Of a stretch of DNA of 64,000 nucleotides, positions 5,909 to 20,893 are shown piece after piece. The notes under the pieces are model-generated. The model did not search any database, was not told where the DNA came from, and saw only the letters and a list, made by a program, of their open reading frames with translations. The translations under genes were made by a program, and so were the position numbers. This DNA is from Streptacidiphilus sp. PB12-B1b. Lineage in GTDB: Bacteria; Actinomycetota; Actinomycetes; Streptomycetales; Streptomycetaceae. The first letter of the stretch is position 1. Every line of letters begins with the position of its first letter. Where the stretch lies: contig NZ_CP048405.1 of NCBI RefSeq assembly GCF_014084125.1, forward strand, positions 3,100,001 through 3,164,000, written 5' to 3'.

Positions 5909-6694
5909 ATGGACTTCACCGGCCGTACCGCCCTGATAACCGGCGCCAGCTCCGGCATCGGATCCGCCTTCGCCGACGCGCTCGCCGCGCGCGGCGCCCA
6001 CCTGGTCCTGGTCGCCCGGCGCGAGGACCGGCTCAACGCCCTCGCCGACGAGCTGCGCGCCCGCCACGGCCACGACGCCCATGTCGTCGCCGCCGACCTG
6101 GCCGCCCCCGGCGCCGGTGCCCGGCTCGCCGCCGAGCTCCAGCGGCGCGGCCTGAGCGTCGACGTCCTGGTCAACAACGCCGGTGTCGCCAGCCACGGCG
6201 ACCTGGCCGACACCGACCCGGACCGGCTGACCGGGCAGATCCAGCTCAACGTCACCACCCTGACCGACCTGACCCGCGCCTGCCTGCCCGGCATGCTCCG
6301 GCGCGGGTACGGGGCGGTCGTCAACGTGGCGAGTTCCGCCGCCTACCAGCCGGTCCCGCACATGGCCGTCTACGCGGCCACCAAGGCGTACGTGCTCAGC
6401 TTCACCGAGGCCCTGTGGGCGGAGACCCGGCGCACCCCGGTGCGGGTGCTGGCCATCTCCCCGGGGGCCACCGAGACCGAGTTCTTCGACATCGCCGGGG
6501 AGGCCGCGCGGGTCGGACGCACGCAGACGCCCGCCGCCGTCGTCGCCACCGCGCTGCGCGCGCTCGACCGCAGGAGCGGCCCCGCCAGCGTCGTCAGCGG
6601 CCTCGGCAACGCCGTCAACGCCGTCGCCGTCCGGCTGGTGCCCCGGCGCACCGCGGTGCTGGTCACCGGACGCCTGACCCGCGGCAACGCCTGA
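5909..6694 (+). CDS. Short-chain dehydrogenase/reductase (SDR)
   Basis: 261 residues of a classical SDR: cofactor motif TGASSGIG (11-18), NNAG (89-92), catalytic Ser in VVNVASSA (142/143) and YxxxK (Tyr155, Lys159). Basic residues after the second strand (VARRED, 36-40) suggest NADPH rather than NADH. The family reduces carbonyls or oxidises alcohols of many small molecules in the cytosol; the subgroup resembles the DltE/YqjQ-like oxidoreductases. It follows a TetR gene and converges on another TetR gene, with a long inverted repeat between the stops. Substrate unknown. Confidence 0.9.
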   Translation: MDFTGRTALITGASSGIGSAFADALAARGAHLVLVARREDRLNALADELRARHGHDAHVVAADLAAPGAGARLAAELQRRGLSVDVLVNNAGVASHGDLADTDPDRLTGQIQLNVTTLTDLTRACLPGMLRRGYGAVVNVASSAAYQPVPHMAVYAATKAYVLSFTEALWAETRRTPVRVLAISPGATETEFFDIAGEAARVGRTQTPAAVVATALRALDRRSGPASVVSGLGNAVNAVAVRLVPRRTAVLVTGRLTRGNA

Positions 6695-6750
6695 CCTGCG
6701 GCCCGCCCGCCCCGCGGCAGCGCCTGGCCCGCGCCGTCGCCGCAGGTCAG
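6691..6750. terminator. Inverted repeat between convergent genes
   Basis: A perfect 12-bp arm (CTGACCTGCGGC, 6691-6702) recurs as its reverse complement at 6739-6750 with a 36-base GC-rich loop. The arms contain the stop codons of both the SDR gene and the TetR gene facing it. It is placed as a bidirectional terminator, though the loop is long. Confidence 0.45.
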
Positions 6751-7367
6751 CGCGGGGTACGGGAGATCCCGAAGAGGATCACGTCGACCAGCTCGGCGGC
6801 GATCTCCTCGGCCGGGCCCTGGGGCACCGAGCTCTCGATGGAGCGGGTGATCAGCGGCCCGGACAGCATGTTGCCGATGGCGTCCGGATCGACGTCCGGG
6901 CGCAGCTCCCCGCTGGCGATCCCGGCGCGGACCACCTGGCGCATCGCCTCCCGGCGCGGCTCGATCACGTCGGCGTAGTAGCGTTCGCGCAGCTGCGGGT
7001 ACTTCAGCCCGGCGGCCATCACCCCGTTGATGATCTGGGTGGCCCGGACGTCCTGGAGCCGGGTGACCAGCGCGCTCAGCACCAGGATCATCCTCTCCCG
7101 GGTGTTCGCCCCGGTGACGGCGGGGACCGGCCGGTTGAGCGAGGCCAGCGCGTCCACCAGCAGCGCGTCCTTGTTGGGCCAGCGCCGGTAGACGGTGTTC
7201 TTGCCGGCTCCGGCGCGGGCCGCGATGGCGTTGATGCTGATGTCGCCCAGCTCGGTGCCCTCGGCGAGCAGGTCCAGCGCGGCCTGCAGGATGGCGAGTT
7301 CGGAATCGGTACTGCGCGGCCGCCCCCGGGTGGGGCGGCCGCCGGGTTCCGGTGCCTCAGTCGACAA
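6747..7367 (-). CDS. TetR family regulator of adjacent MFS exporter
   Basis: 206 residues: N-terminal RGRPRSTDSE basic arm, then the helix-turn-helix around residues 40-65 (ISINAIAARAGAGKNTVYRR), then a TetR_C_11-like effector domain. Its start overlaps the end of the MFS gene by 11 bp on the same strand, so both are made from one transcript and the regulator is translationally coupled to its probable target. The perfect inverted repeat at 9023-9054, ahead of the MFS gene, is the best operator candidate. Confidence 0.9.
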   Translation of the reverse strand: MSTEAPEPGGRPTRGRPRSTDSELAILQAALDLLAEGTELGDISINAIAARAGAGKNTVYRRWPNKDALLVDALASLNRPVPAVTGANTRERMILVLSALVTRLQDVRATQIINGVMAAGLKYPQLRERYYADVIEPRREAMRQVVRAGIASGELRPDVDPDAIGNMLSGPLITRSIESSVPQGPAEEIAAELVDVILFGISRTPR

Positions 7368-8967
7368 CGGGCACCTTCTCGTCGGCCCGCGTCTGCGCGG
7401 GGACGCCTGCCGCGCCCGGGGCGCCGTGGGCCAGGGCGTTGCGGCCGGGGAGCCAGAGCAGGGCGATCAGCACGCCCAGCGCTCCGACCGTGACCGAGCC
7501 GTACACGGCCAGGTGCATGGCGTGGACGAAGGCGTCGTTCGCGGGCCGGAGCAGCGGCTCGGCGCGGGGGCCGACCTTCTCCACGAACGCCTGGGTGGCG
7601 GTGATCGAGCCGGAGAGGTTCTTGACCGTGCCCGGGCTCGAGTGCAGCTGCGGCACGGAGTTGAGCACGGGGGTGATCTGGCTGCGGTAGGCGGAGGTGA
7701 GGATCGATCCGAGGACCGCGACCCCCAGCGCGCCGCCGACCTGGCGGACGGTGTTGTTGATGGCCGAGCCCTCACCGGCCTTCTCGCGCGGCACCGAGGC
7801 CATCACCGCGGCGGTGGCCGGCGGCATCACGTTGGCCATGCCCATGCCCATGGCGAACAGGGCGATCTCCAGGCGCCAGATCGGGGTGCCGGTGCCGACG
7901 AAGGCGTAGTAGCCCAGGGCGAGCGTGACCAGGGCCATGCCGGTGGCGGTGACCGCCTTGTGGCCCAGGCGCTTGACCAGACCGGCGCTGCGCGAGGAGA
8001 AGATCAGCTGGGCCACCGCCAGCGGGATCAGCAGCACACCGCACTTCAGCGGCGAGAAGCCGCGCACGGCCTGCATGTAGAACGAGAGGAAGAAGGTCAT
8101 GCCCATCAGGGCGAAGAAGACCAGGCCGACGACGGCCACGGCGGCGGAGAAGCTCCGGTGCCGGAACAGCTTGACGTTGAGCGCGGGGTGGTCGGTGCGG
8201 CGCTCCCACAGCACGAACAGCACCAGCAGCAGCACGCCGAGGGCGATGATGCCGAGCGCCTCGGGCTTGAGCCAGCCGATGTCGCCGGCCCGGATGATGC
8301 CGTAGACGAAGGCGGTGATTCCGGCGATGGACAGCGGCACGCCGACCGGGTCGAACTTGCCCGGCCTGGGGTTCTTGGAGTCCGGGACGAGGAAGACCAT
8401 CAGCGCGACGGCGAGCACCACGATCGGGATGTTGACCAGGAAGACCGAGCCCCACCAGAAGTGCTGGAGCAGGACGCCGCCGGTGATCGGGCCGATGGCG
8501 ATGGCGATGCCGACGGCGCCGGACCAGATGCCGATGGCCTTGGCCCGCTCCTTGGGCTCGAACACGTTGGAGATGATGGCCAGCGTGGTGGGCATGACCG
8601 CCGCGCCGCCGACGCCCATCAGGATGCGCGCGCCGATCAGCTCGCCCGGCGTCTGCGAGTAGGCAGAGGCCAGCGAGGCGATGCCGAACACCGTCATGCC
8701 GAGCAGCAGCAGCTTCTTGCGGCCGATCCGGTCGCCCAGGACGCCCCAGGTGAACAGCAGCCCGGCGAAGGCCAGGGTGTAGGCGTTGGTCGCCCATTCC
8801 AGGTCGGTCTCGGACGCGCCGAGGCCCTTCACCGGGTCGGCGATGGTCTTGAGGGCGACGTTGAGGATGCTGGAGTCGAGGACGACGACCAGCAGGCTCA
8901 GCACCAGGACGCCCAGGATCATCCAGCGGCGCTTGTGCACCGTGGGATCGACTGCGGGTGTGGTCAT
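7357..8967 (-). CDS. DHA2-family MFS drug exporter (EmrB/QacA type)
   Basis: 536 residues, the size of 14-helix drug:H+ antiporters. It shows LDSSILNVAL in helix 1 (the D1-type motif of DHA2), LGDRIGRKKLLLLG (motif A, near residue 80) and GVGGAAVMPTTLAII (helix 4). I set the start at ATG 8967 (MTTPAVDPTVHK, ribosome site GGAAA); the frame is open for 53 more codons upstream but that extension is low-quality and crosses the likely promoter. It exports hydrophobic compounds. It is divergent from the lanthipeptide genes, with 274 bp between the starts, so a role in exporting that peptide is conceivable but unproven; the coupled TetR suggests drug-inducible efflux. Confidence 0.92.
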   Translation of the reverse strand: MTTPAVDPTVHKRRWMILGVLVLSLLVVVLDSSILNVALKTIADPVKGLGASETDLEWATNAYTLAFAGLLFTWGVLGDRIGRKKLLLLGMTVFGIASLASAYSQTPGELIGARILMGVGGAAVMPTTLAIISNVFEPKERAKAIGIWSGAVGIAIAIGPITGGVLLQHFWWGSVFLVNIPIVVLAVALMVFLVPDSKNPRPGKFDPVGVPLSIAGITAFVYGIIRAGDIGWLKPEALGIIALGVLLLVLFVLWERRTDHPALNVKLFRHRSFSAAVAVVGLVFFALMGMTFFLSFYMQAVRGFSPLKCGVLLIPLAVAQLIFSSRSAGLVKRLGHKAVTATGMALVTLALGYYAFVGTGTPIWRLEIALFAMGMGMANVMPPATAAVMASVPREKAGEGSAINNTVRQVGGALGVAVLGSILTSAYRSQITPVLNSVPQLHSSPGTVKNLSGSITATQAFVEKVGPRAEPLLRPANDAFVHAMHLAVYGSVTVGALGVLIALLWLPGRNALAHGAPGAAGVPAQTRADEKVPVVD

Positions 8968-9022
8968 GGGGAGTTTCCGATCACTGCGATTACGAGACTT
9001 CTTAGTATCGAAAACAGTAGCA

Positions 9023-9054
9023 CGATTTACGAGACTGGCAAGGTCCGTAAATCG
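9023..9054. promoter_or_regulatory. Inverted repeat, probable TetR operator
   Basis: CGATTTAC at 9023-9030 is mirrored exactly by GTAAATCG at 9047-9054, 16 bp apart, an AT-rich island in a GC-rich genome and 56 bp upstream of the MFS start. A 10-bp direct repeat (TTACGAGACT at 8990-8999 and 9027-9036) overlaps it. Position and symmetry fit the operator of the TetR protein encoded behind the exporter. Confidence 0.6.
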
Positions 9055-9241
9055 GAGGGTATGCGAACGGTCGTCCCGGCCGCCGCCGCGCCCGCGCCCG
9101 CCGGGGTCGAGAATTCGCCAGTTCACTTGCCTCCCACCGCTGCTGACGTTGTATCAAGTCATCGCCGCCGGGGTCTGGTGTCGGCGTCGGTGAGCCGCGA
9201 GACTGGCGGCGCACACCCATCCGCCAAGAGGGGAGTCACCC

Positions 9242-9433
9242 ATGCACACCGTTCTTGAGGAAGCCGAGCTGACCGTCGCCGCGTGGCGCGACGGCACCGC
9301 CGACCACAGCCCGGCGGGCCCGCTGTTCACCAGCGGCGCGTACGCCGAGTCGGAGCTGACCGCGTCGGGCGCGGTACGCACCATCCAGTGCGGCACGGCG
9401 TGTTCGTACTCGGCGGGCCGCGAGTGCTGTTGA
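9242..9433 (+). CDS. lanA: Class II lanthipeptide precursor peptide
   Basis: 63 residues, directly before a LanM gene. The N-terminal part is acidic (MHTVLEEAELTVAAW...), as expected for a leader bound by LanM, and ends with a Gly-Ala at 43-44, a typical class II cleavage site. Cleavage there would leave VRTIQCGTACSYSAGRECC: 19 residues with four Cys (50, 54, 62, 63) and exactly four Ser/Thr (47, 52, 55, 57), enough for four (methyl)lanthionine rings. TIQCGT resembles TIECGT of actagardine, with Gln in place of the Glu important in the mersacidin group. A GAGGGGAG ribosome site precedes the ATG. Ring pattern and activity cannot be read from sequence. Confidence 0.88.
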   Translation: MHTVLEEAELTVAAWRDGTADHSPAGPLFTSGAYAESELTASGAVRTIQCGTACSYSAGRECC

Positions 9434-9439
9434 GCACCC

Positions 9440-12436
9440 GTGCCTGATCCGACACCCGTCGGTTTCGAACCCGTGCTGGACCGCCTGCTGGAGCCGGCCT
9501 CTGCCGACCTGGCGGCCCGGCTCGGGGACGTCCCCGGGCTGGAACCGAGCGAGCAGGACGCCATCCGCGAGGGCGCGGCCCGCGCCCTCGGCGCGAGCGT
9601 GCTGCGCAAGGTCAACCGGGTGCTGCTGCTGGAACTCAACGCCGCCCGCGTCTCCGGACGGCTCACCGCCGCAGACCCCGCCGCGCGCTGGGACCAGTGG
9701 ATCGCCGAAGCCTGCCGCCCCGGCTTCTGGGAGGCGCTGACCGACCACTACCCCGGCCTGCTCCGACGCCTGCGCGCGGTCATCGGCAACGCCTGCGACG
9801 CTGCGCTCACCACCGGCGTCCGCTTCGCCGAGGCCCGCGACTCGCTGGCGCGGCTGCCCGGCGCCGGAAGCGGCACGCTGACCGGCATCACCTTCGGCGC
9901 GGGCGACACCCACCGCGGCGGACAGAGCGTCGCCCTGCTCACCACCACGACCGGGCAGGTCGTCTACAAACCGCGCTCCGTCGACGTCGACACCCGGCTC
10001 GCCCGGCTGCTCGACACCGTCATTGCCGGACACCCGGCCGGTACCCGGATCCGGGTACCGCAGGTGCTGGCCCGGCCGGACCACGGCTGGTCCGAGCACG
10101 TCCAGCACCGCTACTGCGCGGACGAGCGCGAGCTGAACGCCTTCTACCTGGGCATCGGCCACTGGCTCGCGGTCATGCGCCTGCTCGGCGGCAGCGACCT
10201 GCACGCGGAGAACGTCATCGCGGCCGGCCCGGTGCCCGTGGTCGTGGACTGCGAGACCCTGTTCACCCCGCACACCGCCGTCGTCCCCTCCGGCTACGGC
10301 CGCGCCGTCGACCGCGCCGCCGAGCTCCTCGGCGACAGCGTGCTGCGCATCGGACTGCTGCCCGGACGCGGCCAGGCCCTGGGCTGGCGCGGCGTGGACC
10401 TCTCCGCCGTCGGCTCCCTGCCCGGCCAGCAGCCGGTCCTCTCCATGCCGGTCATCGTCGGCCTCGGCACCGACGAGGCCCGCATGGACTACGCGCAGGT
10501 GCCGATCGCCGCCTCCCGCAACCACCCGAGCCCCGATCCCGTCCTGCACCGCTACTGGGACCGGGTGGTCGAGGGCTTCACCGGGCTGACCGAGGAACTG
10601 CACCGGCTCGACCGCTCCGGGCACCTCGCCGAACCGCTGGCCGCCTTCGCCGACTGCCCGGTCCGGGTGGTGGTCCGGGCGACCGAGACCTCCCAGGAGC
10701 TCGCCCGGATGCTGTGGCACCCGGCCTCCCTGCACGACGAGCCCGCCTCGGTCGAGCGGGCCCGCGCGCTGCTGGCCGGACACGCCGCCAACGCCTCCGC
10801 CGCCCCCGGCGACCTGGCGGTGATCAAGGCCGAAGTCGCCGACCTGCTCGACGGCGACGTACCGGTCTTCACCACCACTCCGCGCGAGGGGCGGCTCACC
10901 GGCCCCCGGGGCACCGGCTTCGGACCCGCCCGCGACCTGATCGCCGACACCCTCGGACGCTGGCGCGCCGACGACTCCGTCCTGGACCGGCAGGTCATCC
11001 AGGGCACCCTGGTCAGCGCCTACCTCAACGAGGGCTGGCTGCCCGACCGCAAGCCGATGCGGCCCGCCCGCGTCACCGCCGAGCAGCTGGACCGGCGCCG
11101 ACGCGACCAGGCGTCCGCCATCGTCCGTCGGCTGCGGGACGCCGCAATCCGCGCCGACGACGGCACCGTCGCCTGGATCGCACCGGTGCTCGACGGCACC
11201 GGCTGGTCCATCCAGCCCATGGCGAACGACCTGTACGGCGGCCTGTCCGGCGCGGCCGTCCTGCTCGCCGCCTACCGGTTCGAAGCCGCCCGGGGCCGGG
11301 CCGACGCCGTCGACGGCCTGGACGTCCTGCTCGCCGACACCCTGCGCACCCTGCGCGCGACCGAGGCCCAGGAGGAGCGCGACCGGGCCGGGAGCATGGC
11401 GCTGCGGCCCGACGCCCCCGGCGGCTTCGTCGGCCTCGGCTCACGCATCTGGGCCTGGCTGCTGCTGGGCCGCATGGACGCCAGTGGCGTCGAACCGGAG
11501 CAGGCGCTGGCCCGGGCGCTCCGCCTGGCCGGGCGCCTGCCCGAGGCGGTCGCGGCGGACGACGCCCTCGACCTGTTCCGGGGCATGGCCGGGGCCGTCG
11601 TCCCGCTGCTGCGGCTGGCCCAGTACTCCGGCGAGCCCCGCTGGTCGGCGCTGGCCGACGACACCGGCACCCGCCTGGTGCGCGCCGCCGACGTCCGCGC
11701 CGCCGACACCGGATCGGCCGGTGGCGGTGGCGGCGGGAGCGCCGGAGCCGGTACCGCCGGTGCCGGTACCGCCCGCTGGGGCAGCCCCCACTTCCCGGAC
11801 GGCGTCGGCGGCATGGCGCACGGCGCGACCGGCATCGGCTGGGCGCTGGCGCGGCTGGCCGCTGCGGACACCGGCGTCCAGGAGGTGACCGCGGCCGTCG
11901 GCCGGACCGCCGAGGCGGCCTTCGCCTTCGAGGAGAGCACCTACGACCCGGCCCTGGCCGGCTGGATCGACCTGCGGGCCCCCGGCCACACCGGAGCCGC
12001 CTGGTGCCACGGCGCCGGAGGCATCGGCCTGGCCGCCGTCGACCTGATCCGGCACGGCCGCGACCCCGACTGCGGCCCCGACCGCCACCGCGACCGGTGG
12101 CGCGACGTGCTGCGCCGGGCCGCCGCCTCCTGCTGGGCCGACGGGGTCGGCTGGAACCACACCCTGTGCCACGGGGACTTCGGCGTCTGGGAGGTGGTCG
12201 ACCACGCGCTCTCCGCCGGCGTGGCCCCGGTCGGCCTGGACCGTCCCGCCCTGGACGCGCACCTGATCAGCGGCCTGGAGGAGTACGGCCCGATCAGCGG
12301 CCTGGCCCGGGACACCTTCGCACCCGGCCTGCTGCCCGGCGTCGGCGGCATCGCCTACCAACTGCTGCGGATGCACCCGGACAGCCCACTCCCCTCGGTC
12401 CTGCTACCCGACCCCGGCCACCCCACCCCGCTCTGA
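9440..12436 (+). CDS. lanM: Class II lanthipeptide synthetase LanM
   Basis: 998 residues, normal for LanM. The N-terminal dehydratase (DUF4135) phosphorylates and eliminates Ser/Thr; its kinase-like site is seen as GGSDLHAENVIA followed by VVVDCETLF (about 250-275). The C-terminal LanC-like cyclase has HGATGIG, WCHGAGG (Cys near 855) and LCHGDFG (Cys-His near 910), the three zinc ligands that activate the Cys thiols. A Gly/Ala-rich insertion (about 757-778) interrupts the cyclase before HFPDGVGG. GTG 9440 is 6 bp after the precursor stop with no separate ribosome site, so translation is probably coupled. No LanT, protease or immunity gene is next to it. Confidence 0.96.
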   Translation: MPDPTPVGFEPVLDRLLEPASADLAARLGDVPGLEPSEQDAIREGAARALGASVLRKVNRVLLLELNAARVSGRLTAADPAARWDQWIAEACRPGFWEALTDHYPGLLRRLRAVIGNACDAALTTGVRFAEARDSLARLPGAGSGTLTGITFGAGDTHRGGQSVALLTTTTGQVVYKPRSVDVDTRLARLLDTVIAGHPAGTRIRVPQVLARPDHGWSEHVQHRYCADERELNAFYLGIGHWLAVMRLLGGSDLHAENVIAAGPVPVVVDCETLFTPHTAVVPSGYGRAVDRAAELLGDSVLRIGLLPGRGQALGWRGVDLSAVGSLPGQQPVLSMPVIVGLGTDEARMDYAQVPIAASRNHPSPDPVLHRYWDRVVEGFTGLTEELHRLDRSGHLAEPLAAFADCPVRVVVRATETSQELARMLWHPASLHDEPASVERARALLAGHAANASAAPGDLAVIKAEVADLLDGDVPVFTTTPREGRLTGPRGTGFGPARDLIADTLGRWRADDSVLDRQVIQGTLVSAYLNEGWLPDRKPMRPARVTAEQLDRRRRDQASAIVRRLRDAAIRADDGTVAWIAPVLDGTGWSIQPMANDLYGGLSGAAVLLAAYRFEAARGRADAVDGLDVLLADTLRTLRATEAQEERDRAGSMALRPDAPGGFVGLGSRIWAWLLLGRMDASGVEPEQALARALRLAGRLPEAVAADDALDLFRGMAGAVVPLLRLAQYSGEPRWSALADDTGTRLVRAADVRAADTGSAGGGGGGSAGAGTAGAGTARWGSPHFPDGVGGMAHGATGIGWALARLAAADTGVQEVTAAVGRTAEAAFAFEESTYDPALAGWIDLRAPGHTGAAWCHGAGGIGLAAVDLIRHGRDPDCGPDRHRDRWRDVLRRAAASCWADGVGWNHTLCHGDFGVWEVVDHALSAGVAPVGLDRPALDAHLISGLEEYGPISGLARDTFAPGLLPGVGGIAYQLLRMHPDSPLPSVLLPDPGHPTPL

Positions 12437-12445
12437 CCGCCCGCT

Positions 12446-12463
12446 CTGCCCCGCGCGGGGCAG
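12446..12463 (+). terminator. Palindromic terminator after lanM
   Basis: CTGCCCCG-CG-CGGGGCAG is an 18-bp perfect palindrome 9 bp after the LanM stop, in the convergent gap with the oxidoreductase gene. No T tract. It supports lanA-lanM as a two-gene transcript. Confidence 0.6.
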
Positions 12464-12521
12464 CCCGTGCGGGGGCAGCGCGGCGGCCCGGCTCGGGTGC
12501 GCCCGGGTCAGGGGGCAGGGG

Positions 12522-13502
12522 TCAGGGGGCCACCCGCAGCACCAGCTTGCCCCGGGTGCGGCAGGTCTCGCCCCGGCTGTGGGCCTGGCCCACCTGCTCC
12601 AGCGGGAACACCTCCTCGACCTCCACCGCCACGGCCCCGGCGTCCACGAGCCCGGCGATGTGGGTCAGCGCCGGGCCGTCGGGCTCCACCAGGAAGGCAC
12701 TGACCCGGACGCCGCGAGCCTCCGCCGCCTCGCCCAGCTCGGCGGAGACCCCGGCCGGGACCGCGACCAGCAGGCCGCCGGGGCGCAGCACCTGGAGCGA
12801 GCGGGTGCTGGTGCGGTCGTGGCCGTCGCCCACCAGGTCGATGACCACGTCGACGTCGTCGATGACGTCCTCGAACCGGACGGCGGTGTAGTCGACGAGC
12901 TCGTCCGCGCCGAGCTTGGTCAGCCAGTCGTGGCTCCGGGCGCTGGCGGTGCCGATGACGTGCGCGCCCAGGTGCTTGGCGAACTGGACGGCGAAGTGCC
13001 CCACCCCGCCCGCGGCAGCGTGGACCAGCACCCGCTGGCCGGGACGCAGGTCGGCGGTGTCCACCAGGGCCTGCCAGGCGGTCAGCGCGGCCAGCGGTAC
13101 GGCGGCCGCCTGCTCGTGCCCGAGCGCGGCGGGCTTGCGGGCGAACTGGCGGGCCGGTGCGGTGACGTACTCGGCGTAGCCGCCGGCCGCGCGGGGGAAC
13201 CACGGCATGCCGTAGACCTCGTCCCCGGGCTTGAGAGTGGTCACCCCGAAACCGATCTCCTCCACCACCCCGGACACGTCCCAGCCGAGGGTGAACGGCG
13301 GCTCGCCGAGCACCTGGGCCATGCCGGAGCCGGCGCGGGTCTTCCAGTCCACCGGGTTGATCCCGGCGGCGTGCACCCGCACCAGGACCTCCGTCGGCAG
13401 CGGCGCGGGCCGGGGCACCTGCGCCACCCGCAGCACCTCCGGGCCGCCGAAGCGGTCCTGGATCACGGCGCGCATGGTGGGCGTGGACGGGGGAGTGGAC
13501 AT
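12522..13502 (-). CDS. NADP-dependent MDR oxidoreductase (quinone reductase-like)
   Basis: 326 residues, zinc-free medium-chain reductase: GroES-like N-terminal domain, then the nucleotide fold with VLVHAAAGGVGHFAVQFAK (AxxGxxG) around residues 155-173. No zinc-binding Cys or GHE motif is present. Such enzymes reduce quinones or alpha,beta-unsaturated carbonyls with NADPH in the cytosol. It is divergent from an HxlR regulator across 142 bp; such pairs are typically an electrophile- or quinone-sensing system. ATG 13502 chosen; MRAV at 13475 would also be possible. Confidence 0.88.
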   Translation of the reverse strand: MSTPPSTPTMRAVIQDRFGGPEVLRVAQVPRPAPLPTEVLVRVHAAGINPVDWKTRAGSGMAQVLGEPPFTLGWDVSGVVEEIGFGVTTLKPGDEVYGMPWFPRAAGGYAEYVTAPARQFARKPAALGHEQAAAVPLAALTAWQALVDTADLRPGQRVLVHAAAGGVGHFAVQFAKHLGAHVIGTASARSHDWLTKLGADELVDYTAVRFEDVIDDVDVVIDLVGDGHDRTSTRSLQVLRPGGLLVAVPAGVSAELGEAAEARGVRVSAFLVEPDGPALTHIAGLVDAGAVAVEVEEVFPLEQVGQAHSRGETCRTRGKLVLRVAP

Positions 13503-13584
13503 ACGGCAGCTCCAGTACAGGCGGAACGGCGGGAGACCCGGGCCTGGGCCTCCCCGGTGATGTCGGCGACGGTATCCCCGCGCC

Positions 13585-13624
13585 TATAGTTACCCGCAAG
13601 GTCCACTACTTTCCATCGGGAAGT
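13585..13624 (+). promoter_or_regulatory. Promoter and operator of the HxlR gene
   Basis: TATAGT at 13585-13590 is a good -10 for the HxlR gene. Downstream, ACTTTCC (13608-13614) and GGGAAGT (13618-13624) form an inverted repeat with six of seven positions paired around ATC, where a dimeric repressor would block initiation. It sits between the divergent reductase and regulator, so it may control both. Confidence 0.5.
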
Positions 13625-13644
13625 TTCCTGGTGAGAGGTGTCCC

Positions 13645-14028
13645 ATGACGATGAACTGCGAGTCCGGCCAGCACGGCGACCACGATGTCTACACCGCCCA
13701 GTGCCCCTGCCGCGCCATGCTGGACCTGCTGGCCAACAAGTGGTCCGCGCTGGCCATCGGCGCGCTCGAAGAGGGGCCGCGGCGCTTCGGCGAGCTGCAG
13801 CGGACGCTGCAGGGGGTCAGCCCCAAGGTGCTCACCCAGACCCTGCGCCGCCTGGAGGACTCCGCCCTGCTGACCCGCACCGTCTACCCCGCCGTGCCCC
13901 TGCACGTCGAGTACGCGCTCACCCCGCTGGGCCGCAGCGCCGCCGTCCCCCTCGGGCTGCTCCGCAGCTGGGTCGAGGAGAACCTCGACCGCACCGCAGC
14001 CGCCCCCTGCGACCCGGTGGCCGGCTGA
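13645..14028 (+). CDS. HxlR family transcriptional regulator
   Basis: 127 residues with the HxlR winged helix: an early CPC (Cys21, Cys23), then LLANKWSALAIGAL, RRFGELQRTLQGVSPKVLTQTLRRLE (recognition helix, about 50-72) and the wing VEYALTPLGR. Family members sense electrophiles or redox stress, often through the N-terminal Cys, and control a neighbouring reductase, here the divergent MDR gene. A ribosome site (GAGAGGTG) precedes the ATG. Confidence 0.92.
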   Translation: MTMNCESGQHGDHDVYTAQCPCRAMLDLLANKWSALAIGALEEGPRRFGELQRTLQGVSPKVLTQTLRRLEDSALLTRTVYPAVPLHVEYALTPLGRSAAVPLGLLRSWVEENLDRTAAAPCDPVAG

Positions 14029-14183
14029 CGGCGCGTTCCGCCGGTGATGACCAACTCGCTTGCAGAGAAAGTGAATTCAGGCTGCCAGGACGGTGAACCC
14101 ATCCCAGATTCTGTCGTGTCCATGGATAGAGTCTCATGTCCGGATCCGCGCTGGACGGACCCGGCCTCCGAAAGGACGACAGG

Positions 14184-14567
14184 ATGAGCATCACCCGTTC
14201 CGTCAAGCGCCTGACCACCGCCCTGGCCTGCTCCGTGCTCGCGGCAGGGGCCCTCGTCGGCGTCAACGCGACCAGCGCCTCCGCCTCCACCATCAGCAAC
14301 GGCTACGTGCAGCTCTGCGCCCAGGGCGACTACCCGGCCTACATCGTCTTCCCCTACCGCGGCGGCTTCTCCAGCACCATCGTCCAGCCCAAGACCTGCT
14401 GGTACACCTACATGGGCGGCAACTCCTGGGAGCCGATCGACATCTACGGCCTCGGCAACAACAGCGTCATCCCGATCGGCGAGGTCTGGTACGACGGCAG
14501 CGTCTCCGGCATCGGCATCGGCGCCGAAGGCTACGCCTCGGACAACCCCTACTACTGGACCTGGTAA
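14184..14567 (+). CDS. Small secreted protein of unknown function
   Basis: 127 residues. The N-terminus is a Sec signal (basic SITRSVKR, hydrophobic LACSVLAAGALVGV, cleavage near SASA-ST, residue 34). The mature part of about 93 residues is rich in Tyr, Gly, Ser and Asn, contains two Cys (a likely disulfide) and ends YYWTW. I chose ATG 14184 because AAAGGACGACAGG precedes it; earlier in-frame starts would destroy the signal. I do not recognise the family. It stands alone between the HxlR gene and a small membrane protein gene on the other strand. Confidence 0.75.
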   Translation: MSITRSVKRLTTALACSVLAAGALVGVNATSASASTISNGYVQLCAQGDYPAYIVFPYRGGFSSTIVQPKTCWYTYMGGNSWEPIDIYGLGNNSVIPIGEVWYDGSVSGIGIGAEGYASDNPYYWTW

Positions 14568-14605
14568 CCCGCCCCACCCCTGCCCGCCTCGCGCCGCTGG
14601 TGCGG

Positions 14606-14758
14606 TCAGCGCGCGGCGGCGAAGGCGCGGACCAGGTGGGTGAGGCTGTCCAGGACGGCCGGGATGTCGGAGGGGTCGGCCCGGAGGACGGCGGCCAGGC
14701 CGAGGGCCAGGACGGTGCCGATGACGGCCAGCAGGACGGTCAACACGGAAAGCTGCAC
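14606..14758 (-). CDS. 50-residue single-pass membrane protein
   Basis: From GTG 14758, with GGGAG 6 bp before it, the frame encodes MQLSVLTVLLAVIGTVLALG, one hydrophobic helix, then a short soluble tail (LRADPSDIPAVLDSLTHLV). A longer upstream start (GTG 14824) is possible but lacks a ribosome site. No family recognised. It is divergent from the frameshifted DNA-binding-like gene, 192 bp between starts. Confidence 0.5.
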   Translation of the reverse strand: MQLSVLTVLLAVIGTVLALGLAAVLRADPSDIPAVLDSLTHLVRAFAAAR

Positions 14759-14950
14759 GGTGGACTCCCAGAGGACGGGCCGCCGGCCTGTGGTGCCGGC
14801 GGCGTTGGCCCCAGCACAGGCCACCGGGCGGCGGTCCGGCGCGTCCGGTCGCCGTCCGGAGCGTCAACTACGCTGGTGGCCCGGCACTTTCCGGTGTCCG
14901 GGGCGCCGGACGCACCGGACGCCCGGGGCGACCTGCGGACTGGGGGAGCG

Positions 14951-15463
<513 letters not shown>

Positions 15464-15576
15464 CGTCGTTCTGATGCTGCATCAAGTGTCGTTCCCCGCT
15501 CCCGCGCGCGGTTCGTCCTATGGTGGTCCAGCGCCGGGTGGCGGTGCCCGTGGAAGCGGCTGATTCGTGGAGTGGT

Positions 15577-16863
15577 ATGGCAACCGGGTTCCCCGCACGC
15601 GCCCCCGGGCCGGACGCGTCCGCCGGACGCGTGCTGCGTCGCTGGAAACTGTGGATCGCCCCAGGGGTGTTGAGCGCCCTGGCGGTCCTGCTGCTGTCGC
15701 TGCTCTACATGGGTGGCATCCTCACCCCCACCAGCAGCCTGCACCGGCTGCCGATCGCCCTGGTGGACGCGGACACCGGCGCTCCGCTGCCGGGTCAGGC
15801 CACTGATCTCGGGGCCCAGGTCAGCGCTGCCATCCTGGGATCGAGCCCGGCCGGGCAGGTGCAGTGGCGGCAGGTCGGCGCCGCCGAGGCGCAGGACCAG
15901 CTGGCGTCCGGCAGGGTCTACGGGGCGCTGCTGATCCCGCCCGGATTCACCGCCGAGGTAGCCCGACTGACGACCGGTCAGGCAACGGTGCGGCCGACGC
16001 TGACGGTGCTGACCAACCCCGGCTCGGGCAGCCTGGGCTCCTCGCTGGCCAGCCAGATCACCCAGAAGGCGGCCGGGCAGGCGTCGGCGGCCATCGGGAA
16101 GCAGCTGAGCACCTCGCCCGCACTGGCGGGGGCGGACGCCACCACCCGGCTGCTGCTGGCGGATCCGGTCGCGGTCGTGACCACGGTCGGGCACCCCATC
16201 GGCGCCCACAGCGGCCTGGGGCTGACTGCGTTCTACTACACGCTGCTGCTGGTGCTGGGCGGTTTCATCAGCGCCAACGTGGTGCACAGCGCGGTGGACA
16301 CCTCGCTCGGCTACGCGGACAGCGAGATCGGCCCCTGGCACACCCGGCGGCCCACCGTGCCGATCAACCGGACGCAGACGCTGCTGGTGAAGATGGGCAT
16401 GACGGCGGGCCTGTCGGTGCTGGCGACGTCCCTGATCATGGTGGCGACCATCGCCGTGCTGGGCATGGACGCCCCGCACCAGGCGCTGCTGTGGCTGTTC
16501 TCGATCTGCGCCTGCCTGACGGTCGGGCTGGGCGCCCAGGCCATCAATGCCGCCTTCGGCGGGATCGGGCAGCTGGTGTCGATGTTCGTGTTCATCGCGC
16601 TGGCGCTGCCCTCCTCCGGGGCCACGGTGCCGCTGGAGGCCACCCCCGGCTTCTACCACTTCCTCGCGGCCTTCGAGCCCATGCGGCAGGTGGTCGGCGG
16701 CGTCCGGTCGATCCTCTACTTCGACGCGCGCGCCGACGCCGGCCTCACCCGGGGCTGGATCATGATCGCGGTCGGTTTCGTGGTCGCGCTCGTCTTCGGC
16801 TTTGCGATGACCGGCTACTACGACCGCAAGGGCCTGGCCCGGATGGTGCCGCAACCCGGCTGA
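15577..16863 (+). CDS. DUF3533/YhgE-like membrane protein
   Basis: 428 residues. One membrane helix near the N-terminus (APGVLSALAVLLLSLLYMGG), a large extracellular domain starting LPIALVDADTGAPL, then four to five helices from about residue 220 (LTAFYYTLLLVLGGFISANVV onward). This is the ABC2-membrane/phage-infection-protein (YhgE/Pip, DUF3533) architecture; related proteins act in export or cell-surface functions that are poorly defined. ATG 15577 has a GTGGAG site; ATG 15520 lacks one. The end overlaps a convergent oxidoreductase gene by 46 bp. No ATPase gene is adjacent. Confidence 0.82.
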   Translation: MATGFPARAPGPDASAGRVLRRWKLWIAPGVLSALAVLLLSLLYMGGILTPTSSLHRLPIALVDADTGAPLPGQATDLGAQVSAAILGSSPAGQVQWRQVGAAEAQDQLASGRVYGALLIPPGFTAEVARLTTGQATVRPTLTVLTNPGSGSLGSSLASQITQKAAGQASAAIGKQLSTSPALAGADATTRLLLADPVAVVTTVGHPIGAHSGLGLTAFYYTLLLVLGGFISANVVHSAVDTSLGYADSEIGPWHTRRPTVPINRTQTLLVKMGMTAGLSVLATSLIMVATIAVLGMDAPHQALLWLFSICACLTVGLGAQAINAAFGGIGQLVSMFVFIALALPSSGATVPLEATPGFYHFLAAFEPMRQVVGGVRSILYFDARADAGLTRGWIMIAVGFVVALVFGFAMTGYYDRKGLARMVPQPG

Positions 16864-18017
16864 CCCGGCCCGGAGCGGCTCCCATTCCCGACCCGGGGCG
16901 GCTCCCGCCCGGACGGCCCCGGACGGCCCCGTCCGGTGCGGGCCGCGGCTCCGCTCGGCGTCCCTCGCGGCGCTGCCACGGCCGGTTGCGGGATCAGCAC
17001 GACCTTGCCGCTGACCGTGCCGGACTCGGCCAGGCGCAGCGCCTCGGCGGCCCGGGCCAGGGGGAGTTCGGCGGCGATGCCCGCGGTGACCTCGCCCCGC
17101 TGCATGGCCGCGAAGACCTGGCCCAGGTCGGTGCGCAGGCGGGCGCGGAAGCGGTCCCGGGCGAGGGCCTTGCCGGCCCAGACGTTGTAGAAGCAGGCGT
17201 GCCGCCGGTTGGGCAGGGCGTTCCACATCCACACCCGGCCGAGGAGCTTCAGCACGGGCCACTGCTTGGAGCCGCTGTCGTCGCGGGTCGAGGCGCTGCC
17301 GTAGGAGACGAGGGTGCCGCCGGGGGCGAGCAGGTGCCAGGAGTCGGTCAGGCCCCGGCCGCCGACGTGGTCGAAGGCCGCGTCGACGCCACCGGGCGCC
17401 AACTCCCGCACCCGCGCCGGGAGGTCCGGGTCGCGGTAGTCGACGGGCGCCACACCCCGGGCGCGCAGCGCGTCGTGGTGGCGGGCGGAGGCGGTGCCGA
17501 CGACCCGTACCCCGGCGGCCAGCGCGAGCTGCACCAGGATCGAGCCCACGCCGCCGTTGGCCCCGTGCACCAGGACGGTCTGCCCGGCGCGCACCCGGGC
17601 CCGGCGGTGCAGCATCTGCCAGGCGGTGATGCCGTTGACGACGGCGGTCTCCGCCTCGGCCGCGCTGATCCCCTCCGGCACCGGGACCAGGTCGGCCGCG
17701 TCCAGCAGGACGTGGCTGGCCCAGCCGCCGGTCTTGGTCAGCGCCGCGACCCTGCTGCCCGCCAGGCCGCCGGGGACTCCCGCGCCGACCGCCTGCACGG
17801 TGCCGACCAGGTCGTACCCGGGGACGAACGGGAAGGGCGGCTGGTCGTAGTAGCGGCCCCGGCGCATCTGCTGTTCGGCGAAGGAGACCCCGGTCGCCTC
17901 CATCCGGACCAGCGCCTGGCCCGGACCGGGGGCGGGCACCGGGCCGAGCCGCAGTTCCAGCCCCTCCGGCTCGACCTCGCCGGGTAGGACGACCTCGACA
18001 CGCTCTTCGATCCTCAT
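16818..18017 (-). CDS. Medium-chain (MDR) oxidoreductase
   Basis: 399 residues, zinc-less MDR: VLVHGANGGVGSILVQLALA (nucleotide-binding AxxGxxG) near residue 150 and the segment DAAFDHVGGRGLTDSWHLL. The catalytic part ends at about residue 345 (GKVVLIPQP); the last 50 residues are a basic, low-complexity tail that overlaps the convergent gene and may not be functional. The start is ATG 18017 with GGAGGT 6 bp before it. The TetR gene 109 bp upstream on the same strand probably controls it: a shared 14-bp motif lies ahead of both. Confidence 0.87.
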   Translation of the reverse strand: MRIEERVEVVLPGEVEPEGLELRLGPVPAPGPGQALVRMEATGVSFAEQQMRRGRYYDQPPFPFVPGYDLVGTVQAVGAGVPGGLAGSRVAALTKTGGWASHVLLDAADLVPVPEGISAAEAETAVVNGITAWQMLHRRARVRAGQTVLVHGANGGVGSILVQLALAAGVRVVGTASARHHDALRARGVAPVDYRDPDLPARVRELAPGGVDAAFDHVGGRGLTDSWHLLAPGGTLVSYGSASTRDDSGSKQWPVLKLLGRVWMWNALPNRRHACFYNVWAGKALARDRFRARLRTDLGQVFAAMQRGEVTAGIAAELPLARAAEALRLAESGTVSGKVVLIPQPAVAAPRGTPSGAAARTGRGRPGPSGREPPRVGNGSRSGPGQPGCGTIRARPLRS

Positions 18018-18060
18018 CACAGACCTCCGTGGATTTCCTGGCTTTGTCGGCATTGATTGT

Positions 18061-18074
18061 GTGGTCGATCACTC
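18061..18074 (+). promoter_or_regulatory. TetR operator candidate, copy 1
   Basis: GTGGTCGATCACTC, a near-palindrome, lies 44 bp upstream of the oxidoreductase start. Twelve of 14 bases recur, on the other strand, just upstream of the TetR start at 18696-18709. The pairing of both sites with the two genes suggests joint control by the TetR protein. Confidence 0.6.
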
Positions 18075-18126
18075 ACTCTTTGGCCCGAAGGCAGGGCGGA
18101 GCATGCTGCTCCGCCCGGTGGTGCGT

Positions 18127-18693
18127 TCAGTAGTGCCGGATGTCCGCCGTCAGCGTCCTCGCCCAGGGGGCGTCCACCTCGTCCGCGCCCATGGACACGA
18201 TCAGGTGGCACAGCATGCCGCGCGCGAAGAAGTCCTGCACCTGGTGCTCGCTGCCGCCTGAGGCCCCGCGCACGTACTCCACCGTGCGGGCGTAGCCCTG
18301 CCGGACGGCGTCGCGCACCGCCGGCTCGGACACCGCCGCCGCCTGCGCGTGCAGCTGCACCAGGACCAGGTCGCTGTCGGTGATCAGCCGGGCGTAACTG
18401 TCGCCCATGGCGCCGAGCACCGCCTCCGGGCTGCTGCCCGGGGCCTCGGCCGCTGCCTGCTCCAGGCAGCTGCGGACCAGCCGGAAGCACTGCTCGACCA
18501 CGGCCACGAACAGCGATTCCTTGTTGGGGAACAGCCGGTAGACGTAGGACTGGGAGATGCCTGCCTCCCTGGCGACCTCCGTCGTGGTGGTACCGAAGTA
18601 GCCGCGGGTGGCGAAAGTGCCGATCGCCGTGCGCAGCACGGTCTCGCGGCGCTCCTCGGCGGTGGACAGCTGGCGGATGCGTTCCGGACTCAT
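18127..18693 (-). CDS. TetR family transcriptional regulator
   Basis: 188 residues from ATG 18693; a TTG at 18705 would add four. Helix-turn-helix around residues 35-60 (TTTEVAREAGISQSYVYRLF), then a conserved FPNKESLF and a TetR C-terminal domain with an acidic last third. The start codon lies immediately beside the operator candidate at 18696-18709, consistent with autorepression and perhaps a short or absent leader. The MDR oxidoreductase follows on the same strand. Confidence 0.88.
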   Translation of the reverse strand: MSPERIRQLSTAEERRETVLRTAIGTFATRGYFGTTTTEVAREAGISQSYVYRLFPNKESLFVAVVEQCFRLVRSCLEQAAAEAPGSSPEAVLGAMGDSYARLITDSDLVLVQLHAQAAAVSEPAVRDAVRQGYARTVEYVRGASGGSEHQVQDFFARGMLCHLIVSMGADEVDAPWARTLTADIRHY

Positions 18694-18695
18694 AG

Positions 18696-18709
18696 GAGTA
18701 ATCAACCAC
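18696..18709 (-). promoter_or_regulatory. TetR operator candidate, copy 2
   Basis: On the minus strand GTGGTTGATTACTC, matching the copy at 18061-18074 at 12 of 14 positions. It overlaps the region just upstream of the TetR ATG, so binding would block its own transcription. Confidence 0.6.
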
Positions 18710-18826
18710 TCACACCTGTGGGTGTCAAGTTCCGGGGGAGTCGACCAGTCCGGTCGGAAGGTCGACGCCCCGCGGTGGCCGGCAGGTCGGGCCGACCGGC
18801 CACCGCGGGCAGAGTGCCGGGCGCGG

Positions 18827-20758
18827 TTACAGGGCGCGCTCGGCGCGCTCCGCCACCAGCTTGATGAAGCGCGAGGGGTCGGCCAGCTGGCCGCCCTCGG
18901 CCAACAGCGCCATGCCGTACAGCAGTTCGGCGGTCTCGGCCAGGGCCGGCTCGTCCGCCCGCTCGCCGTGCGCCTTGTTCAGGCCGCTGACCAGCGGGTG
19001 GTCGGCGTTGAGCTCCAGGATGCGCTTGCTGTGCGGGATCTCCTGCCCCATGGCGCGGTAGAGGTTCTCCAGGGCCGGGGTCGCGTCGTGGGTGTCCGAC
19101 ACCAGGCAGGAGGGCGAGACGGTCAGGCGAGCGGAGAGCCGCACCTCCTTGACGTCCTCGCCCAGCTGTCCGCCCATCCAGCTGAGCAGCTCGGCGTACT
19201 CCTGGCGGCGCTGCTCGCGCTCCTCGCCCTTCTCCTGCTCCTCCTCCGCGCCCAGCGGGACCTCACCCTTGGCGACCGAGCGCAGCTCCTTGCCCTCGAA
19301 GCCGGTGACCGCCTCGACCCACACCTCGTCGACGGGGTCGGTGAGCAGCAGCACCTCGACGCCCTTGGCCCGGAACGCCTCCATGTGCGGGGAGTTCTCG
19401 ATGACCTGCCGGGACTCGCCGGTCAGGTAGAAGATGTGCTCCTGGCCCTCCTTCATCCGCTCGACGTACTGCTTGAGCGTGGTCGGCGCCTCCGGGGCGT
19501 GGGTGGAGGCGAAGGAGGAGACGGCGAGGATGGTCTCGCGGTTGTCGTCGTCGCTCAACAGGCCCTCCTTGAGGACCCGGCCGAACTCGCCCCACAGCGT
19601 GGCGTAGCGCTCGGGCGAGCCGGTCATCATCTCCTTGACCGTGGAGAGCACCTTCTTGGCCAGGCGCCGGCGCATCAGCTGGATCTGGCGGTCCTGCTGC
19701 AGGATCTCCCGGGAGACGTTGAGCGAGAGGTCCTGCGCGTCCACCACGCCCTTCACGAAGCGCAGGTACGGCGGCATCAGCGCCTCGCAGTCGTCCATCA
19801 CGAAGACGCGCTTGACGTACAGCTGGATGCCGCGCTGGTAGCCCTGGCTGAACAGGTCGTGCGGCGCGTGCGCCGGGACGAACAGCAGCGCCTGGTACTC
19901 GAAGGTGCCCTCGGCCTGCAGCCGGATGGTCTCCAGCGGGTCGTTCCAGTCGTGGCTGATGTGCTTGTACAGCTCGTGGTACTCGTCGTCGGTGACCTCG
20001 TCGCGCGAGCGGGCCCAGAGCGCCTTCATGGAGTTGAGGGTCTCCGGCTCGCGGGGGGCGGCGTCCGCCTCCTCGGCCTCGCCCTCGGCGGCGGGCGGCG
20101 GGGTCGGCGCGGCCATCCGGATCGGCCAGGTGATGAAGTCCGAGTACCGCTTGACGATCTCGCGGATCTTCCAGGGCGCGGTGTAGTCGTGCAGCTGGTC
20201 CTCGGTGTCGGCCGGGCGCAGCCGCAGGGTCACGGTGGTGCCCTGCGGGGCCTCCTCGACCCGTTCCAGGGTGTAGGTGCCCTCGCCGCTGGAGGTCCAG
20301 CGGGTGCCCTCGCTCTCGCCGGCCCGCCGGGTGAGCAGCTCGACCTCGTCGGCCACCATGAAGCTGGAGTAGAAGCCGACGCCGAACTGCCCGATCAGGC
20401 CCTCGGCGGTGGCCTCGTCCTTGGCGCCCTTCAGCTCCTTGACGAACTTGGCGGTGCCCGAGTTGGCGATGGTGCCGATGAGCTGGATGACCTCGTCGTA
20501 CGACATGCCGATGCCGTTGTCGCGCACGATCAGGGTGCGCGTCTCCCGGTCCGCCTCGATCTCGATGTGCAGGTCGGACACGTCGGCGCCGAGGTCCTGG
20601 TCGCGCAGGGCCTCCAGGCGCACCTTGTCCAGAGCGTCCGAGGCGTTGGAGATGAGTTCGCGCAGGAACACGTCCTTGTTCGAGTAGATCGAGTGGATCA
20701 CCATCTGCAGCAGCTGGCGCGCTTCCACCTGGAACTCGAACGTCTCAGTCGCCACCAC
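18827..20758 (-). CDS. htpG: Molecular chaperone HtpG (Hsp90)
   Basis: 643 residues, typical for bacterial Hsp90. The GHKL ATPase domain is clear: SIYSNKDVFLRELISNASDA (motif I), DNGIGM, GQFGVGFYSSFMVAD and TTVTLRL, followed by the middle domain (LNVSREILQQDRQI, which carries the catalytic-loop Arg) and a C-terminal dimerisation domain. Hsp90 refolds and remodels client proteins in the cytosol under stress. I chose GTG 20758, 8 bp after GAGGAGG; the frame is open further but MLGSVPVIRRP is not homologous-looking. A Glu-rich insert (about 515-530) is typical of charged linkers. It appears monocistronic. Confidence 0.97.
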   Translation of the reverse strand: MVATETFEFQVEARQLLQMVIHSIYSNKDVFLRELISNASDALDKVRLEALRDQDLGADVSDLHIEIEADRETRTLIVRDNGIGMSYDEVIQLIGTIANSGTAKFVKELKGAKDEATAEGLIGQFGVGFYSSFMVADEVELLTRRAGESEGTRWTSSGEGTYTLERVEEAPQGTTVTLRLRPADTEDQLHDYTAPWKIREIVKRYSDFITWPIRMAAPTPPPAAEGEAEEADAAPREPETLNSMKALWARSRDEVTDDEYHELYKHISHDWNDPLETIRLQAEGTFEYQALLFVPAHAPHDLFSQGYQRGIQLYVKRVFVMDDCEALMPPYLRFVKGVVDAQDLSLNVSREILQQDRQIQLMRRRLAKKVLSTVKEMMTGSPERYATLWGEFGRVLKEGLLSDDDNRETILAVSSFASTHAPEAPTTLKQYVERMKEGQEHIFYLTGESRQVIENSPHMEAFRAKGVEVLLLTDPVDEVWVEAVTGFEGKELRSVAKGEVPLGAEEEQEKGEEREQRRQEYAELLSWMGGQLGEDVKEVRLSARLTVSPSCLVSDTHDATPALENLYRAMGQEIPHSKRILELNADHPLVSGLNKAHGERADEPALAETAELLYGMALLAEGGQLADPSRFIKLVAERAERAL

Positions 20759-20893
20759 TGGGAAGTCCTCCTCGGGTCGTCGGATGACGGGAACTGACCC
20801 GAGCACTGTAGATCAATCCGCGGCCCCCGCGTCCCGCCCTCCTCCGGATCCGGTGACCGGGGGCGGCGGGCAGGCGCGGGGGAGTGCGGCCGG

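Follow-up and report, generated by a model that had tools for sequence, protein, structure and literature searches.

A DUF6229 precursor and its LanM form a probable two-gene lanthipeptide module in Streptacidiphilus sp. PB12-B1b

The precursor and LanM genes

In this study, we examined a lanthipeptide precursor gene and the synthetase gene beside it in a 64-kb window of Streptacidiphilus sp. PB12-B1b (contig NZ_CP048405.1); the window is the whole stretch of DNA that was analysed, and coordinates refer to it unless another locus is named. The precursor gene, lanA (9242..9433, + strand), starts with ATG, with the ribosome-binding-like sequence GAGGGGAG immediately 5' of 9242, and encodes 63 residues, of which about 1-44 form the leader and about 45-63 the core, the boundary between them being putative. 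After a gap of 6 nt, and on the same strand, follows the gene for LanM (9440..12436, +), a class II lanthipeptide synthetase of 998 aa with a DUF4135 dehydratase and a LANC_like cyclase, whose GTG start agrees in position with the ATG start of the orthologue from a congeneric species (G745). Together the two genes very probably make up a complete class II lanthipeptide module belonging to DUF6229.

In Pfam, the precursor scores 60 bits with DUF6229 (PF19740), against a cut-off of 25; given E = 2e-16 over residues 6-63, which correspond to positions 2-62 of the 62-position profile, it is not a product of chance. LanM matches TIGR03897 with 492.7 bits (cut-off 304), as well as Pfam PF13575 (311.9 bits) and PF05147 (86.4 bits). 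Its motifs YKPR, GSDLHAEN, VDCETLF, AHG, WCHG and LCHG, aligned with those of relatives, are all intact; we take them to include the dehydratase Lys, DxHxxN and DxE elements and the C/CH zinc triad. A sequence-only reading of this DNA, made without database searches, had described the pair as a minimal class II lanthipeptide locus, and the sequence, Pfam and TIGR03897 all bear this out. As DUF6229 peptides have already been reported as LanM substrates, the locus is a member of a recognised kind; DUF6229 lanthipeptides are a recently recognised family, in which the window peptide itself is uncharacterised.

The core after Gly43-Ala44 (9374..9430, +) consists of the 19 residues VRTIQCGTACSYSAGRECC, with Cys at 50, 54, 62 and 63 and, as the sequence-only reading had counted, exactly four Ser/Thr (Thr47, Thr52, Ser55 and Ser57), so that up to four rings are possible in a compact peptide. 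The orthologous core in G745, DQVKTVQCGTVCSYSAGRDCC, differs at 4 of the 19 residues, all conservatively, and every one of the eight Ser, Thr and Cys is kept. Over the whole precursor gene, 15 codon differences alter the residue and 14 are silent; with 11/44 leader residues changed, the leader is not tellingly more variable than the core. The core string of the window was not found in print in the main texts of open-licence papers, supplements apart; the list of 8405 precursor peptides belonging to PMC7268733 and the class II peptides predicted for Streptacidiphilus in PMC7601586 may hold it.

Relatives and core patterns

DUF6229 is sparsely distributed, with matches in 4 of the 14 genomes from the genus, in at least 24 of 391 sampled across the order and in at least 6 of 394 sampled across the class (own genome included in each); the order and class tallies are lower bounds, at most 15 first-look candidates having been scored per genome. 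Genes in relatives were called with a simple GC-frame script rather than taken from annotation; L031 and L075, which are one place, were counted once, and L006 and L007, below the cut-off, were excluded. The LanM of G745, the nearest relative, is 70.7% identical (BLAST) to that of the window, followed by that of G029 (65.5%) and by those of Planomonospora sp. ID67723, Nonomuraea gerenzanensis and others (50-56%); the remaining LanMs, Embleya included, are about 42-45% identical. In a tree of 31 LanM rows, the window LanM groups with G745 (100/100) and then with G029 (100/100). These three belong to a clade of 8 rows (99/99), together with the loci of Nonomuraea and of the Planomonospora and SSCTCxR types. 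The two-gene layout is general: LanM lies 3' of the precursor on the same strand in all 41 loci, and the distance from the precursor stop to the first LanM residue that could be aligned is -52 to 274 nt. Of these loci, the precursor model picked up 30, and LanM or precursor BLAST the other 11. One locus (L072) has tandem DUF6229 precursors (9517-9699 and 9757-9960, both - strand) before a single LanM, with cores ending in SSCTCSRFCC and SSCTGAHTIACC.

The pattern [ST]-x(0-2)-CGTxC[ST]xSx4CC is common to 12 precursors (9 distinct 17-mers), the window's included; they come from Streptacidiphilus, an f3 genome, Planomonospora with one relative, Nonomuraea, and genomes of the Embleya type. Since the Embleya CGTxC loci fall outside the 8-row clade, the CGTxC cores do not correspond to one LanM clade. 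Directly ahead of the first Cys stands Q (two cores), R (two cores), F or V, and in the other 6 of the 12 the Ser/Thr itself. Other actinobacterial groups carry CSSC[TS]xS...CC or CSSP[TS]GS...CC; in the latter (L047-L051 and L070) the second Cys is replaced by Pro, which leaves three Cys. Taken together, C-x(2,3)-C-[ST]-x-S is present in 29/42 precursors (19/27 distinct cores), and in 38/42 if the second Cys may be Pro. The Cys-Cys end, found in 42/42, holds by construction, as the pattern script took only precursors ending in Cys-Cys; among the Pfam matches above cut-off, 31/33 end in Cys-Cys and 2/33 are Cys-free repeats.

Ring topology, leader removal and alternative readings

Rhodanocin (LanII of Dyella sp. 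333MFSha) is a DUF6229 peptide and class II synthetase substrate reported to undergo four dehydrations and to carry three rings, Thr6-Cys11, Thr12-Cys23 and Ser14-Cys8, with Thr18 as dehydrobutyrine (Dhb) (PMC9576775). Like the window locus, it combines a DUF6229 precursor that has a possible double-Gly motif with a class II synthetase, and its order T6-x-C8-xx-C11-T12-x-S14...C resembles the window-type [ST]-x(0,2)-C-x3-C-[ST]-x-S...CC, the Nonomuraea core TVCGTVCTDS being closest to it in spacing. It differs in its gammaproteobacterial origin and its three Cys in a 23-residue AspN fragment, whereas the window core has four Cys, CGTxC and a terminal Cys-Cys. An actagardine-type ring from i to i+3 is not the shared ring, since Ser/Thr abuts the first Cys in half of the 12 cores, and the spacing of the core would fit rhodanocin's crossed rings better than such a first ring. 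We put forward, as a tentative prediction that is plausible though short of probable, rings Thr47-Cys54, Ser57-Cys50 and Ser55-Cys62/63; Thr52 would pair with whichever Cys is still free or stay as Dhb.

Several points weigh against this assignment. Rhodanocin has one Cys fewer, the first two Cys of the window core are one residue further apart than its own, and its exact two-residue gap recurs in only 17/42 precursors; four of the 42 (the SSCT and SPCTGS types) misfit even the looser pattern C-x(2,3)-[CP]-[ST]-x-S. The homology of the rings rests on the reported residue positions of rhodanocin, not on its sequence. In its favour, shuffled 23-mers of rhodanocin's make-up contain C-xx-C-T-x-T at a frequency of only 0.0057, or 0.0014 when the last residue is fixed as Cys, a T must stand upstream and the gap may be 2 or 3, but both figures flatter the pattern, because it was chosen after both sides had been seen. 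Also against it, the spacing Thr47-x-x-Cys50 permits a simple first ring. Thr-x-x-Cys is a common lanthionine spacing, and [ST]xxC occurs in 5 of the 12 subgroup cores (window, G745, G029, G443 and Planomonospora), which speaks for a working LanM that closes its rings in simple N-to-C order (Thr47-Cys50, Thr52-Cys54 or Cys62, and Ser55/57-Cys62/63). With the nearest Ser/Thr, however, that order is impossible in the six cores with adjacent TC or SC and unlikely in Nonomuraea (TxC), and we regard it as a serious but rather doubtful alternative.

In this module, LanM would bind the DUF6229 leader through the conserved W15...PAG...E36, phosphorylate Thr47, Thr52, Ser55 and Ser57 and eliminate the phosphates, and its zinc site would add Cys50, Cys54, Cys62 and Cys63 to give a compact polycyclic peptide. 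All the predicted rings, among them Ser57-Cys50, in which Cys precedes Ser, are drawn from position homology with rhodanocin. An antimicrobial role may be supposed as a default guess; the AspN fragment of rhodanocin has weak activity, with a minimum inhibitory concentration of 126 µM against K. pneumoniae (PMC9576775).

Removal of the leader and export would fall to proteins encoded elsewhere. That no dedicated transporter adjoins the locus was already part of the sequence-only reading and holds, with a divergent exporter gene (below) as a qualification: the genome's two C39 transporters gave no BLAST match at E <= 1e-5 in the whole 64 kb, no ABC (ATP-binding cassette) exporter stands beside LanM, and annotation of the genes from 5909 to 20806 turned up neither a protease nor a transporter of the lanthipeptide kind, LanP-type (S8) proteases not having been searched for. 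The two C39 transporters both lie 2.3-2.4 Mb from the locus, one of them beside genes of the nonribosomal peptide synthetase (NRPS) type. The lack of a transporter is not special to the window, because a C39 domain was matched in none of the 28 flanked Cys-core loci; the C39 part of the two transporters had no match in the 31 flanked loci or the window, with matches confined to the ATPase part. An ABC exporter gene adjoins LanM in 10 of the 28 Cys-core loci (L035, L037-L041, L074, L075, L079 and L080); L042 shows a weaker ABC similarity, and L036 is cut by its contig end. The four exporters checked in Pfam (those of L037, L079, L080 and L031, the last being the same place as L075) matched PF00005 and had no C39 domain. 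No orphan copy of such an exporter could be singled out in the own genome, which returned 69 matches with a best identity of 36%.

The Gly-Ala leader end proposed from the sequence is not supported by the relatives. It is Asp-Gln in G745, the closest orthologue, and G[AGS] occurs near the leader end in only 3 of the 12 subgroup precursors; neither the conserved GG/GA/GS site nor the C39 transporter that mark the double-Gly leader/C39 LanT group was found here. For rhodanocin, the C39 protease LahT150 is reported to have failed to cut despite the possible double-Gly motif (PMC9576775). Cleavage of the window precursor at Gly-Ala thus seems unlikely.

Immediately around the pair lie genes that are probably unrelated to it: a DHA2-type exporter of the major facilitator superfamily (MFS; 7357..9126, - strand; TIGR00711, 255.3 bits, cut-off 230.2), which starts 115 bp upstream of the precursor in divergent orientation, and a convergent quinone-oxidoreductase-type dehydrogenase (12522..13502, - strand; PF08240/PF00107/PF13602). 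Directly 3' of the LanM stop, a G+C-rich hairpin (12437..12486, +) is a possible but weak terminator, with a fold z of -2.06, 7/200 shuffles equally good and no T run 3' of it in the sequence. Neither the MFS exporter nor the dehydrogenase has a counterpart beside the other compared DUF6229 loci at E <= 1e-15, and at the same threshold no window neighbour (about 1-21 kb) except LanM matches the neighbours of those loci; at E 1e-8 only generic families cluster, one with L049 and one with L031. A PADLOC scan found nothing. Further downstream, an open reading frame of 143 aa (14136-14567, +) near an HxlR regulator matches nothing in NCBIfam or Pfam at E <= 1 and has an N-terminus that is signal-like by eye, and a low-complexity stretch at about 15370-15470 has frames that read (EQ)n, (AG)n or (PA)n.

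Flanks that, at E <= 1e-15, have nothing in common even with those of the G745 orthologue, together with the sparse distribution (4/14 genomes of the genus) and the missing dedicated transporter, could indicate a degenerate or silent remnant whose genes are no longer expressed or exported. We consider this quite unlikely, given that both frames are intact, that the core and the catalytic motifs are conserved with respect to an orthologue 71% identical and that the two-gene layout holds in 41/41 loci.

Kinship with the mersacidin/actagardine group, which the sequence-only reading had suggested from the TIQCGT segment, is the most improbable reading, and we reject it. TIQCGT would then form a lipid II-binding ring and a C39 protease would cut after Gly-Ala, and the window locus does resemble that group in its class II synthetase, its short core, the Gly-Ala of its precursor, a leader style that presumably recalls mersacidin's loosely and the local string TI[EQ]CGT, which we take to be like that of actagardine. 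The ring motif of the mersacidin group is of the CTLTxEC type with Glu, yet CTLT is absent upstream in the window core, among the 12 subgroup cores TIQ is either variable or not there at all, the supposed 'Gln for Glu' position is not conserved, since the residue before the first Cys varies, no mersacidin-family model matched in the NCBIfam scan, Gly-Ala gives way to Asp-Gln in the closest orthologue, and C39 transporters are distant rather than adjacent.

Cys-free sister systems and the DUF6229 family

The own genome contains three LanM-type dehydratase domains and two DUF6229 matches above the cut-off. The second DUF6229 gene, at about 5250.1-5250.6 kb (G000:C1) and 2.1 Mb from the window locus, encodes a repeat precursor (L032:10117-10617, - strand) that ends 52 nt before its LanM (L032:7222-10062, - strand); its 167 residues begin with a DUF6229 leader (41 bits over residues 4-37), continue with repeats of the AFVTIED type and include no Cys. 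The third LanM (L033; G000:C1:5183275-5184405) is far from the DUF6229 LanMs (end branch 3.94), and no precursor was recognised in the upstream stretch inspected.

When 14 genomes of the genus and 200 of the family were searched, the same arrangement was found among the top-scoring places in G753, G819 and G765, with Thr repeats VTTESLRD, VTTEAVRD and ITIEEPS in precursors of 167, 268 and 276 aa (L071:7651-8151:+, L107:9489-10292:- and L108:8113-8940:-), each beside its own LanM. The only Cys among the four repeat precursors is one in the leader of G765, and the repeat part of L071:7651-8151:+ also matches PF25296, 'Decapeptide repeat region' (50.1 bits, cut-off 45). The LanMs of these three systems are 57-62% identical to the repeat-system LanM of the own genome. 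In each of the four LanMs the dehydratase motifs and the WC/CH zinc ligands are intact, but about 12-16 residues are missing ahead of WCxG. In the cyclase motif AHG, the His, which we take to be NisC His212, is Arg in G753 and Asn in G765, lies in an unalignable stretch in G819 and is kept in the own genome. This suggests that the repeat-system LanMs may dehydrate without cyclising, but a fully dead cyclase is hard to square with the intact zinc site and with the His retained in the own copy. In the literature, some cyanotin cores have no Cys (PMC7268733), and the substrates of the prochlorosin synthetase include Cys-less peptides (PMC11251773). The DUF6229 leader and LanM may form a portable platform with an exchangeable core, which within this single genome would be a four-Cys interlocked cage at the window locus and a Cys-free Thr repeat, perhaps with a dehydratase-only LanM, at the other, an idea we hold tentatively and with some doubt.

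The window locus adds an actinobacterial subgroup (CGTxC...CC) to the DUF6229 family. The authors of the rhodanocin study recognise at least two lanthipeptide groups within DUF6229 (PMC9576775), and in Lysobacter 21 of 27 unique class II precursors are annotated DUF6229, with six precursor families that appear, according to the authors, to differ in ring topology (PMC11451712); compared by description only, these share with the window the same precursor family in class II clusters. Rhodanocin is the one reported ring structure found for the family, and the window locus yields a testable ring prediction beside it. A dedicated C39 transporter is commonly lacking in the family, and therefore the removal of DUF6229 leaders is a family-wide question. 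We judge the Cys-free repeat systems to be stranger than the window locus itself. If the platform idea is true, such a system would give a long Dhb-rich peptide without a thioether ring, and the Cys-free sister systems would test LanM as a stand-alone dehydratase for repeat peptides.

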